DNA from: Ruminococcaceae bacterium UBA1438
GTDB lineage: Bacteria > Bacillota > Clostridia > Oscillospirales > Acutalibacteraceae
Assembly (NCBI GenBank): GCA_002329285.1
Contig: DCTO01000072.1
Span: forward strand, 1,914 to 14,395
Length of the DNA: 12,482 nt
Direction of reading: 5' to 3'
The position numbers and the translations under genes were made by a program. Each line of letters starts with the position of its first letter. Within the stretch, counting starts at the first letter, position 1. Shown here piece after piece: positions 2,438 through 6,016 of this stretch. The notes below the pieces were generated by a model. The model had not been told where the DNA came from and did not search any database. It saw nothing but the letters and a program-made list of their open reading frames with translations.

Positions 2438-4189
2438 TTAAATGTCGTCTTCGCCTTGCAATGCATCGTATCCATGCTCTCCGGTTCTGACTTTGACAAC
2501 GTCGTCAACCTCATAGATGAAGATTTTGCCGTCGCCGATATTGCCTGTGTAAAGCACTCTTCGTGCCGCCTCTACAACGTCTGAAACGGGAACGGCGGAA
2601 ACTACCATTTCAAGTTTCATTTTCGGGTTGAGATTCATTTCTTCAATCTCAACGCCACGGTATTTCTTAATGTTGTGTCCCTTCTGAACGCCGCAGCCCA
2701 TTACATTGGTTACCGTCATACCCGTTACGCCGATTTCATTCATGGCATCCTTAACTGCTTCAAAGCGTGCAGGATTGAATACCATAACAAGTTTTGTAAG
2801 TTTCGGCTTGCTTTTCGTAATATATGATTCAACAGGTACGGCTCTTTCAACAGGCTCAATCGGAGCGCCGACAATCTCTTTTGCCTCAGGCAGCACCGCC
2901 TTCATAGAGGCGGAGGTTGCTACCGCCATAGCCGGCATAAAGTCCGCATATGCTGACGGGAGGTTATGCTCCGTAGCGTCAAGACCTTTGATTTCCTCTT
3001 CTTCTGAAACACGAAGCCCATGGAATTTCTTAATTGCCGTGAAAACAATCAGCATTGTGCAAACCGTCCAGGCAGCAACTGCGAAAAAGCCGAGCGCCTG
3101 AATACCAAGCTGCTTAAAGCCTCCGCCGTGGAACAGACCTTTACCTACTCCGTCTGCACCTGTAGAAAACAGACCGACTGCGAAGGTTCCCCAGATGCCG
3201 TTTGCCAAATGCACGGCACACGCACCGACGGGGTCGTCAATATGTAATTTCTTATCAATGAATTCAACGGCAACGACAACAAGAACACCCGAAACGGCGC
3301 CGATAATGATGGAGCCGAGTGCATCCGTGCAATCACAGGGAGCGGTAATCGCTACCAAGCCTGCAAGCGAGGCGTTAAGGCTCATCGAAACATCGGGCTT
3401 GCCGTCCTTTACCCAGGTGAAAATCATTGTAACTACCGTTGCAACCGCCGGTGCAAGCGTAGTTGTAACAAAAATTGATGCAAGCATATCAACGCTTGTT
3501 GCGGCAGCACCGTTAAAGCCGTACCATCCGAACCAAAGAATGAACACGCCGAGCGCACCTACCGTCAGGTTGTGCCCGGGGATTGCTCTTGCAATTTTCT
3601 TGCCCGTCTTTTTGTCAAGCTTATATTTGCCGATACGCGGTCCGAGCATTGCTGCACCGATGAACGCTGCAATACCGCCGACCATATGAATAGCCGTTGA
3701 GCCTGCAAAATCGTGGAAGCCGAGTTTAGCAAGCCATCCCTCGCCGTTCCATATCCATCCTGCTTCAACGGGATAAACAACGGCGGAAATTACTGCGGAA
3801 TAAATGCAGTAAGCCGAAAACTTTGTTCTCTCCGCCATAGCGCCTGAAACGATGGTGGCTGCCGTAGCACAGAACACAAGGTTGAACACGAAGTTTGACC
3901 AGTCGAAATGTGCATAATCGGTGAACACGCCGAGCGTCGGCATACCGATAAGACCTCCAAGACATTCCTCGCCCATCATCAAGCCGAATCCGAGCAGAAT
4001 AAACATAACCGCTCCGATACAGAAATCCATCAGGTTTTTCATAATAATATTGCCTGCGTTCTTCGCTCTGGTAAAGCCGCTTTCTACCATGGCAAAGCCG
4101 CACTGCATAAAAAACACAAGCGCCGCACCGATTAAAAACCAAACGCCGAACACGCTGTCTGAAACAGCGGATAAAATTGAATCACTCAT
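2438..4189 (-). CDS. amt: Ammonium transporter with fused C-terminal P-II domain
   Basis: Inner-membrane ammonium channel joined to a nitrogen-sensing P-II (GlnK-like) domain, 583 residues in all. The Amt part (about 1-395) has a series of hydrophobic segments, the family block DFAGSTAIHMVGG (D160, twin-His H168) and ACAVHLANGIWG (second twin-His H327). A linker of about 65 residues follows. The P-II domain (about 463-580) carries QKGH at 502-505, the T-loop YRG at 510-512, the B-loop IGDGKIF at 551-557 and VRTGEHG at 567-573. The position equivalent to the uridylylated Tyr51 of E. coli P-II is Ile515, so that modification cannot occur. I chose the ATG at 4189 because an AGGAGG site precedes it; an upstream in-frame ATG at 4249 has none. 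It lies downstream of glnA behind a long structured leader. Built-in gating of the channel by its own sensor is inference from the known GlnK-Amt partnership. Confidence 0.93.
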   Translation of the reverse strand: MSDSILSAVSDSVFGVWFLIGAALVFFMQCGFAMVESGFTRAKNAGNIIMKNLMDFCIGAVMFILLGFGLMMGEECLGGLIGMPTLGVFTDYAHFDWSNFVFNLVFCATAATIVSGAMAERTKFSAYCIYSAVISAVVYPVEAGWIWNGEGWLAKLGFHDFAGSTAIHMVGGIAAFIGAAMLGPRIGKYKLDKKTGKKIARAIPGHNLTVGALGVFILWFGWYGFNGAAATSVDMLASIFVTTTLAPAVATVVTMIFTWVKDGKPDVSMSLNASLAGLVAITAPCDCTDALGSIIIGAVSGVLVVVAVEFIDKKLHIDDPVGACAVHLANGIWGTFAVGLFSTGADGVGKGLFHGGGFKQLGIQALGFFAVAAWTVCTMLIVFTAIKKFHGLRVSEEEEIKGLDATEHNLPSAYADFMPAMAVATSASMKAVLPEAKEIVGAPIEPVERAVPVESYITKSKPKLTKLVMVFNPARFEAVKDAMNEIGVTGMTVTNVMGCGVQKGHNIKKYRGVEIEEMNLNPKMKLEMVVSAVPVSDVVEAARRVLYTGNIGDGKIFIYEVDDVVKVRTGEHGYDALQGEDDI

Positions 4190-4271
4190 TTTCTGTCCTC
4201 CTATAACAAAACAAGAACGAAAATGCCAAAGTTCGCTTAAATACAGCATTTCGGCGATTCGGATTCGTCTT

Positions 4272-4461: not shown

Positions 4462-5793
4462 TCATATATCTGTCAATTTCCCATTGACTAATCTGTGTTT
4501 GTATTCATCCCATTCGCGCTTCTTACCCTCAATGTAGTTGTTATATACATGCTCGCCGAGAGTTTCTTTGATGAACGGGTCTTTTTCTGCTTCCTTTATT
4601 GCTTCTTCAAGTGAGCCGGGCAAGCAGTCAATGCCTTCCTCTTTCAGTTCTTCATCCGAAAGAACGAAAACGTTTTCATCATAGCTGGGCTTCGGTACAA
4701 GTCCTCGCTTAATACCGTCAAGACCTGCGGCAAGGCAAAGCGCCATTTCAAGATAGGGGTTGCAGGTCGGGTCGGGGCAGCGAAGCTCAACCCTTGTGCC
4801 TTTTCCTCTTGAGGCGGGAATTCTTACAAGGCAGCTTCTGTTTGAGGTTGACCATACTAAATAGCTTGGAGCCTCATAGCCCGGAACAAGCCTTTTGTAT
4901 GAGTTTACGGTTGGGTTTGAAAATATCGCAATACCCTTGACGTGCTCCATAATTCCCGCGATAAAGGAATATGCTTCTTTGGAAAGACCAAGCTCGCCGT
5001 TCGGGTCGTCAAAAACGTTCTTACCTGTTGCGATATCGTAAAGGCTCATATTCGTATGCATACCGCTGCCGTTGATACCGTGAATCGGCTTCGGCATAAA
5101 GGATGCATGTAAGCCGTGCTTGGTTGCGTAGGTTTTAACAACATGCTTAAAGGTCATTACTCTGTCAGCAGTGAGAAGTCCGTCGCCGAACTGGAAGTCA
5201 ATCTCGTGCTGACCCTGTGCAACTTCGTGGTGCGACGCTTCAATGGTATATCCCATTTCTTCAAGCGCAAGGCAGATATCCCTGCGGCAGTTTTCGCCGT
5301 GGTCAATCGGGTTGAGGTCGAAGTAACCTGCCTCATCGCCGAGCTCAATGGTAGGCTTGCCGTCCTCGTCAAGCTTGAAAAGGAAGAATTCACATTCGGG
5401 ACCGACATTGAAGCCGTAGCCGAGCTTCTTTGCTTCCTCCATTACTTTGATTAACACGTTTCTCGGGTCGCCTTCAAACGGTGTTTTATTGTCCGCTTTA
5501 TATACGGAGCAGATAAGTCTGCCCGTCTGAATATTCTCGTGCTTTCTCCAGGGAACGATTGCCCATGTATCGTAATCGGGATGAAGGTACATATCACTCT
5601 CGTCAATACGAACGAAGCCGTCGATGGACGAGCCGTCAAACATACAGTCGTTCTCCAGTGCTTTTTCAAGCTGTGACACCGTAATAGCCACATTCTTCAT
5701 TTTGCCGAACAGGTCAGTAAACTGAAGTCTGACGAATTCAACATTATTTTCCTTTGCGCTCTGTAAAATCTGTTCCTTTGTCATTTTGCTCAT
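4462..5793 (-). CDS. glnA: Glutamine synthetase, type I (alpha subgroup)
   Basis: ATP-dependent synthesis of glutamine from glutamate and ammonium; the main ammonium-fixing step, normally a cytoplasmic dodecamer. The protein is 443 residues, close to the 444 of B. subtilis GlnA. Metal and substrate residues are visible: E133 and E135 in GPECEFF, E190 and E197 in [11 protein letters not shown]246 in GSGMHTN and E336 in [22 protein letters not shown] lies at 293-309. [11 protein letters not shown] at 52-62 includes an arginine at the position linked to glutamine feedback inhibition in the Bacillus enzyme. The NLYDLP-type adenylylation segment of beta enzymes is absent, so control is probably by feedback and at gene expression. 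The start is fixed by AGGAGG at 5801-5806. It is the first gene of the nitrogen operon and is preceded by a leader with three tandem hairpins. Confidence 0.97.
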
Positions 5794-5828
5794 AGTGTTT
5801 CCTCCTAAAAGTTTTTTATATAGCGAAA

Positions 5829-5977
5829 GGCGCCTTTTGTATTGCTACAAAAGACGCCATTGCCTATCGTCATATTTAAAGGAAAAGAGTCTTTGAGATA
5901 AACTCAAAGACTCCATTGCCCAAATATTCTGTTAAATAGTGAAAGGGTCCTTGAGTTTCCTCAAAGACCCCTTTGCC
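5829..5977 (-). repeat. Three tandem hairpin repeats in the glnA leader
   Basis: Three copies, starting at 5977, 5920 and 5864 on the minus strand (period 57 and 56 nt), each begin GGCAA-A/T-GG-N-GTCTTT and fold into a hairpin. Hairpin 1 (5973-5942) has a GAAA loop, hairpin 2 (5914-5886) a TTTAT loop, and hairpin 3 (5858-5829) a GCAA loop. The ninth base of the repeat is G, A and C in the three copies, and its partner is C, T and G, so the pair changes but pairing is kept. The upper stem also differs in copy 3 (TGTA/TACA instead of GAG/CTC) with pairing kept. Each hairpin is followed by a short T-run of 3-4 bases. The array ends about 22 nt before the glnA ribosome binding site, so it most likely acts in the mRNA as an attenuator, protein-binding array or stability element (inference). 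Confidence 0.8.
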
Positions 5978-5987
5978 TTACAAGTAA

Positions 5988-6016
5988 AGGTTACACCCGT
6001 TTTCCGAAAAAGTCAA
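5988..6016 (-). promoter_or_regulatory. Candidate glnA promoter
   Basis: On the minus strand TTGACT (6016-6011), a 17-nt spacer and TAACCT (5993-5988). The -35 box is near consensus and the -10 box is weak, which would suit an activated or tightly controlled promoter. Transcription would start near 5981 and take the whole triple-hairpin array into the mRNA leader. I found no clear GlnR/TnrA-type TGTNA-N7-TNACA site nearby. Confidence 0.45.

Follow-up and report, generated by a model that had tools for sequence, protein, structure and literature searches.

Tandem single-hexaloop units in a clostridial glnA leader as probable ANTAR-controlled transcription attenuators

The leader of glnA in the stretch of DNA analysed here (12,482 nucleotides of contig DCTO01000072.1 from Ruminococcaceae bacterium UBA1438, hereafter the window) carries three units in tandem, and in our opinion it is highly probable that each of these 56-57 nt units acts as a protein-dependent transcription attenuator switched by an ANTAR protein. 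Most likely we are dealing with a set of nitrogen genes under ANTAR antitermination and not with a new riboswitch. The initial annotation had already described the array as a functional-looking, covarying RNA with a possible tie to nitrogen, and in this it was right.

The array lies on the minus strand, in the sense orientation to glnA, which is also on the minus strand (Table 1). The three units with a shared head are indeed present, at head-to-head distances of 57 and 56 nt. Folding reproduces both the pairs reported for the ninth base and its partner (G-C, A-T and C-G) and the loops of the long hairpins (GAAA, TTTAT and GCAA). The leader as a whole has a folding energy of -73.1 kcal/mol, where shuffled sequences average -39.9 (z -7.9; none of 200 shuffles was as good). 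The long hairpins that had been claimed are recovered in the centroid, which is close to three hairpins, but in the lowest-energy fold the arms of units 1 and 2 pair with each other. The array was also said to sit between a promoter and the glnA ribosome binding site. A likely promoter can be recognised by eye, and several close relatives have a similar block, TTGAC...TGTAAC, in their leaders; the strict scan, however, does not list it, nor does the output of the promoter script on the near-identical leader L034. As for a T-run after each hairpin, the claim holds for unit 2, the only one accepted by the strict terminator scan of the window leader, but not for units 1 and 3, where the stem is closed or trailed by CTTTC only and the U-tracts are poor. 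In the window a good U-tract is limited to unit 2, so termination at the other two units may be leaky.

Table 1. Features of the glnA leader and of the ANTAR locus. Coordinates are those of the window unless a locus (L) is given; both L entries lie on contig C99 of the source genome (G000:C99).
Feature	Position	Strand	Basis or remark
Likely promoter TTGACT-17-TAACCT	5988..6016	-	by eye; predicted start a few nt 5' of unit 1
Head GGCAA[A/T]GG-N-GTCTTT, unit 1	5977-5963	-	pattern
Head GGCAA[A/T]GG-N-GTCTTT, unit 2	5920-5906	-	pattern
Head GGCAA[A/T]GG-N-GTCTTT, unit 3	5864-5850	-	pattern
Unit 1 hexaloop hairpin AAGGC[AAAGGG]GUCUU, proposed ANTAR site	5964..5979	-	folding, covariation
Unit 1 long terminator-like hairpin, weak U-tract	5942..5973	-	folding, covariation
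Unit 2 hexaloop hairpin GGGC[AAUGGA]GUCU	5908..5921	-	folding
Unit 2 terminator hairpin, then UUUCCUUU	5886..5914	-	folding and strict terminator scan
Unit 3 hexaloop hairpin AGGC[AAUGGC]GUCU	5852..5865	-	folding
Unit 3 long terminator-like hairpin, weak U-tract	5829..5858	-	folding
glnA ribosome binding site AGGAGG	5801..5806	-	read from sequence
glnA, glutamine synthetase	4462..5793	-	
Ammonium transporter with C-terminal P-II domain, 3' of glnA	2438..4249	-	
Glutamine synthetase gene before the ANTAR gene	L002:779-1992		
ANTAR gene, directly after the glutamine synthetase gene	L003:1084-1668		

A search of the window against Rfam returned no family at gathering score, in agreement with the earlier suggestion that the element may be undescribed. 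Within the leader the best sub-threshold match was the PyrR binding site (RF00515; 31.7 bits, gathering 54), which we rejected along with mir-547, RsaE and other families, all below threshold.

The initial annotation found no match to an ANTAR target. This is correct insofar as the array does not have the paired-hexaloop arrangement, but each head does fold as an ANTAR-type hexaloop, which was missed because only the loops of the long hairpins had been considered. ANTAR targets are described as a hexaloop with A1 and G4 on a short stem (PMC3369931), with a C:G closing pair according to SELEX with NasR (PMC7496416). The head GGC[AAWGGN]GUC forms just such a hairpin, and the three window hexaloops, AAAGGG, AATGGA and AATGGC, all have A1 and G4, are closed by GGC/GUC and stand on a stem of at least 3 bp. 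The long hairpin includes the 3' strand of the hexaloop in its own 5' strand, and therefore only one of the two can fold at a time; in unit 1 the long hairpin and the hexaloop are mutually exclusive in this way. By themselves the window hexaloops are weak (-1.4 to -2.6 kcal/mol; -2.5 for unit 1), and with the hexaloop forced the units reach only -6.5 to -8.9 kcal/mol as against -20.9 to -23.8 unforced (-23.1 for unit 1). A bound protein would therefore be needed to hold the hexaloop. Stepwise attenuation and protein binding had both been raised before; the former is plausible and the latter possible.

Our comparison set consists of 80 glnA loci from public genomes, some genomes contributing several loci. 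The 420 nt 5' of glnA in these loci hold 91 terminator-like hairpins, and 78 of them carry an R-A-N-G hexaloop with a stem of at least 4 bp at the 5' arm, compared with 35 of 334 such hairpins elsewhere in the same loci. A rule that looks at the hexaloop only (C-[RANGRN]-G on a stem of at least four pairs) picks out 94 units, which belong to 60 of the 80 glnA leaders: one unit in 38 leaders, two in 10 and three in 12, spaced 47-80 nt apart where there are several. The same rule finds no unit in the remaining 20 leaders; as controls, it gives 2/80 on the opposite strand and a mean of 1.5/80 in shuffled leaders.

For the covariation of the hexaloop stem we used 59 distinct units, in which the register was taken from the loop sequence and not from the stem; a terminator-like hairpin was required and no stem rule was applied, 7 of 91 hairpins without a register were dropped, and four chance-looking rows were retained. 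In this set 62 cells were changed on both sides of the stem (18.9 on average in shuffles, none of 500 of which came as high), and the covariation score is 0.541 in register and at most 0.374 when the partner is slid. The pairs are A-U in 34 and G-C in 23 units at the first position, A-U in 26 and G-C in 24 at the second, and A-U in 24, G-U in 21 and G-C in 10 at the third. Around the same type of loop the stem reads GGC/GUC, AGC/GCU, GAC/GUC or AAC/GUU. The closing pair is C-G in 56 of the 59 rows, with the proviso that C/G neighbours broke ties in the choice of register. A is preferred at loop position 1, where 8 of the 59 units have G; G4 formed part of the register rule, and its constancy is hence not independent.

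Hexaloops with G1 (GAGGGC, GAAGGC, GAGGAC) occur, with the terminator-like hairpin retained, in the glnA leaders L048, L049, L064, L067, L075, L091, L092 and L094. They may inform on the role of A1.

Both helices can be followed together in 51 full units. These come from 107 candidates, of which 57 were kept and 6 then omitted by hand as over-long or mis-ended (from L079, the minus strand of L203, L207, L208, L165 and L150). A terminator arm was required throughout, and in the glnA-leader rows a hexaloop stem of at least 4 bp as well; the non-glnA rows were selected under the same rule. In these rows, whose selection with both helices in view favours both, the terminator helix is paired in 98.7% of cells with 92 changed on both sides, and the hexaloop helix in 89.4% with 44 changed on both sides. 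Columns 14-18 are common to the two helices, and the variable ones among them track both partners: column 16 covaries with column 5 (G-C 27, A-U 24) and also with column 44 (C-G 26, U-A 24). Such three-way covariation is the pattern by which sequence comparison recognises an attenuator whose two folds exclude each other. Conservation does not extend beyond the loop of 6 nt, the pairs that close it and the complementary arm.

The source genome (85.8% complete) has seven units in four leaders. Besides the array in the window, DNA similarity and the head pattern reveal two units in front of gdhA (contig C99). A second glnA, on contig C54, is preceded by one unit, and so are the GS-ANTAR genes on C99, where it reads ATGAGC[AAAGGC]GTTCAT. 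Five of the six exact matches to the head pattern in this genome fall in the glnA and gdhA leaders, the sixth in apparent coding sequence. Across 150 genomes of the family 67 exact matches were listed as against about 50 in the reversed control (summed by hand), and because this enrichment is weak we did not count single exact matches as evidence.

The same 150 genomes were searched with a covariance model of the full unit. Of the 91 that are ANTAR-positive 46 have a match at E<=1e-3, and of the 59 that are ANTAR-negative 4 do (Fisher p 6e-9, genomes taken as independent). Eight positive genomes hold rows of the model (the source genome, G001, G032, G034, G066, G071, G073 and G098), and without them the figures are 38/83 and 4/59 (p 2e-7, on the same assumption); at E<=0.01 they are 58/91 and 14/59. 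Some rows of the model come from regions chosen for their nearness to ANTAR genes. At least 29 of 78 model matches lie within 15 kb of an ANTAR gene, a lower bound that covers part of the ANTAR positions and is not used as evidence. The initial annotation had proposed to see whether hits of such a model cluster at nitrogen genes, and they do: the first gene downstream of the 30 returned loci is a type III glutamine synthetase in 15, GlnA in 5, an ammonium transporter in 3, gdhA in 2 and a gltB-type amidotransferase in 1, which makes 26 of 30, or 21 of 23 when the seven loci that contain model rows are set aside. The other first genes are dapF, pyrG and a circularly permuted (CP) ATP-grasp gene, one each, and one is unassigned; the unassigned match (L258, in an ANTAR-negative genome) is probably a plain terminator. 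The units precede nitrogen genes in the orientation of the gene, so that the reading as a scattered REP or MITE element, considered from the start as a possible refutation, can be rejected.

Two model matches lie 5' of genes that do not obviously belong to nitrogen assimilation, the circularly permuted ATP-grasp gene (L248) and dapF (L238). A match at C72:20738 of the source genome (E 1.7e-3), with no ORF of at least 60 aa starting within 500 nt, was rejected as an ordinary terminator.

The leader form is not universal, since 45 of the 91 ANTAR-positive genomes have no model match at E<=1e-3 and, among nine closer glnA leaders from other genomes of the family (L213-L221), a clear unit is seen in L213 only. 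At the cut-off used glnA was matched in 2 of 15 ANTAR-negative and 13 of 15 ANTAR-positive genomes, leaving few negative leaders to compare; L217 and L227, glnA leaders from ANTAR-negative genomes, show no unit-like terminator by eye.

The source genome has one ANTAR match, a protein of 194 residues, whose gene lies directly behind a second glutamine synthetase gene on contig C99; the two genes are divergent from gdhA with its two units. By sequence the protein matches 6wsh (a response regulator, which we take to be EutV), 1qo0 (AmiR) and 1s8n (a putative antiterminator). The last is Rv1626 (PMC8934654). A glutamine synthetase gene is directly upstream in 43 of the 56 ANTAR loci in which the query found the ANTAR gene (60 scanned). 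ANTAR proteins occur in 91 of 150 genomes of the family. Fifty of the 80 glnA loci led to 47 genomes, 46 of them with an ANTAR protein; under the hexaloop rule 45 of the 47 carry a unit before glnA, and ANTAR is present in 44 of those. One of the genomes with ANTAR, in which a single match was found, is that of Eubacterium coprostanoligenes ATCC 51222, whose leader (L065) has one unit. L037 (G151, a draft of 1.6 Mb) has a three-unit glnA leader and no ANTAR match, perhaps because the assembly is incomplete or the gene was truly lost.

We aligned 55 ANTAR proteins (that of the source genome and those of 54 of the 60 loci) and mapped the residues of EutV onto them ourselves, the roles of the residues being taken from PMC8934654. 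Among the residues that contact RNA, Lys149 and Glu160 have their equivalent in all 55 proteins and Met172 in 54; at the place of Tyr164 53 have His, and the place of Arg142 is mostly Ile. At the phospho-acceptor place of the receiver 34 of the 55 have Asn and 12 have Asp.

Based on these data, we propose the following mechanism. When polymerase leaves the promoter the head would fold first, as the small hexaloop hairpin. An active ANTAR protein would bind and hold this hairpin, the terminator would be blocked and transcription would continue; with the protein inactive, the far more stable long hairpin would win and polymerase would stop. We expect the protein to be inactive, and the terminators to act, in nitrogen excess. 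With three units in series the effect of each stop would be multiplied, so that the off state is tight and the response steep. The regulator would be the ANTAR protein encoded on C99, with glnA, the second glnA, gdhA and its own operon as targets. Because the receiver is mostly without the usual phospho-acceptor Asp, nitrogen or glutamine status would be expected to reach the protein through a partner protein or a ligand, not through phosphorylation, and the sensor is perhaps the adjacent glutamine synthetase. The alternative helices with their covariation, the regulon and the ANTAR co-occurrence are computed; binding, antitermination and the signal are inferred.

The most serious objection is that the units are canonical dual-hexaloop targets after all, either because neighbouring units serve as P1 and P2 or because a divergent P1 was missed. 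A second hexaloop is available in the 22 of 60 leaders with two or three units, and NasR is reported to bind a single hairpin more weakly than a pair. We nevertheless consider this unlikely. The other 38 leaders have one unit only, and the spacing of 47-80 nt (56-57 nt in the window, against a linker of 2-25 nt in a pair) contrasts with EutV, which is reported to tolerate short linkers only. An A1/G4 hexaloop with a stem of at least 3 bp lies within 40 nt upstream of just 3 of the 94 units, where mononucleotide shuffles lead one to expect 8.6-8.9. Between the window units the same stem rule, run on the near-identical L034, finds no second hexaloop. A weak ACAGAA loop before unit 2, with two closing pairs followed by U-U mismatches (by eye), was discarded, since it has no stem of 3 bp and no counterpart was seen before unit 3. 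Further, 36 of the 38 single-unit leaders have a promoter that matches 10-12 of 12 bases and puts the predicted start 0-10 nt before the hexaloop stem, leaving too little room for a P1. These promoters are consensus calls and the starts predictions, and 9 of the 60 leaders received no call; with a reach of 150 nt upstream it is again 36 of 38, and shuffles yield 1.3. As read from the leaders, then, the arrangement is one hexaloop per terminator, and the multi-unit arrays appear to repeat the whole hexaloop-terminator unit.

One may suppose instead that the units work as DNA, as operators to which a repressor or an activator binds near the transcript start, and that the terminators are incidental. 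The first unit is just 3' of the predicted start, a classical place for an operator, and symmetric changes in the stem would also fit a palindromic DNA site. However, the conserved centre AANGGN is asymmetric, the terminator arm covaries with the same strand, the spacing of the units is variable, and the units track an ANTAR protein, which belongs to a known RNA-binding family; we regard this reading as quite improbable. Less probable still are plain tandem terminators that limit read-through with no regulator: the hairpins are strong and the hexaloop is energetically minor, but neither the covariation of the 5' strand that lies outside the terminator (columns 4-6), nor the contrast of 78/91 with 35/334, nor the ANTAR link would then be accounted for. 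The small-molecule sensing suggested originally, that is, a tandem riboswitch for glutamine, 2-oxoglutarate or ammonium, would suit the nitrogen genes downstream, and tandem riboswitches are known, but with no conserved core of aptamer size and no Rfam match at gathering we found nothing in favour of a riboswitch and give this reading the least credence of all.

In some glnA leaders (L040, L041, L043, L044, L080, L052, L053, L055 and L057) the stretch from the array to glnA holds a small ORF of 53-59 codons, which has a ribosome site of its own and ends in NTTSWD, NTTTWD, NETSWD or similar. Its product is possibly a small regulator of glutamine synthetase. Shorter, dissimilar ORFs occupy the same place in L050, L051, L056, L058, L060 and L061. 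The 53-59-codon ORF was not seen in the window; L035 has an apparent C-terminal remnant of it (by eye).

ANTAR antitermination of nitrogen genes is of a known kind, and glutamine synthetase genes are already among predicted targets elsewhere, as described in PMC3369931 and PMC3369936. What is new relative to the literature, as far as our search of it goes, is the single-hexaloop tandem form: in open-licence PMC papers we recognised no description of single-hexaloop ANTAR attenuators or of this glnA array. The ANTAR RNAs published so far, according to PMC8164766, have two hexaloops each, which a linker of 2-25 nt joins. Predicted ANTAR regulons with glutamine and glutamate synthase genes, including those in Desulfotomaculum (PMC3369931), are the same kind of target, but they were found with a dual-hairpin model, and single-hexaloop leaders fall outside its definition. 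Such a search model would miss these leaders. Also comparable are nitR of C. acetobutylicum and Clo1313_2030 of C. thermocellum, where an ANTAR gene is clustered with GS/GOGAT and where ammonia-responsive antitermination has been proposed for the clostridial GS-linked antiterminator (PMC4676874); the passages of that paper on which we draw give no RNA target.

We would go one step further, with some hesitation, and entertain the idea that single-hexaloop ANTAR attenuators at the 5' end of the transcript run nitrogen assimilation across a whole clade within the Clostridia and break the two-hexaloop rule. Proximity to the promoter would replace the recruiting P1, a copy number of 1-3 would tune the dynamic range, and an unphosphorylatable ANTAR protein would read nitrogen via its glutamine synthetase neighbour. 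This is a possibility that we take seriously without being convinced of it. If such leaders are real, they would account for the control of nitrogen genes in one set of gut and rumen Clostridia, the two-hexaloop model could be tested directly on naturally occurring one-hexaloop leaders, and the existing series with one, two or three similar units would be a ready test of what serial attenuators do to a response.

The best-studied comparison is EutV in the eut system of Enterococcus faecalis, which shares with the units the A1/G4 hexaloop, the short stem and the strand common to hexaloop and terminator, and likewise has an ANTAR-domain regulator, nitrogen-linked genes and several attenuators in one regulon (PMC3369931; PMC8934654). 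EutV is activated by phosphorylation and needs two hexaloops with a short linker; it binds as a dimer, each hexaloop separately in the structure, and function is strongly reduced or lost when the linker is 3 or 14 nt long or is extended by 20 nt (PMC3369931, PMC8934654). The glnA units, on the contrary, have one hexaloop per terminator with no P1 found, and the ANTAR proteins linked to them mostly have Asn for the receiver Asp and His for Tyr164. By alignment AmiR, the signal of which is amides, has His at this same place. The C-G closing pair and the preference for A1 and G4 are shared with NasR and nasF, as seen in SELEX with NasR, whereas nasF has a P1P2 pair and the signal there is nitrate or nitrite (PMC7496416, PMC3369936). 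With a single loop per terminator the units fall outside the dual-hexaloop family and are not filed in it; they very probably work like a member of that family.
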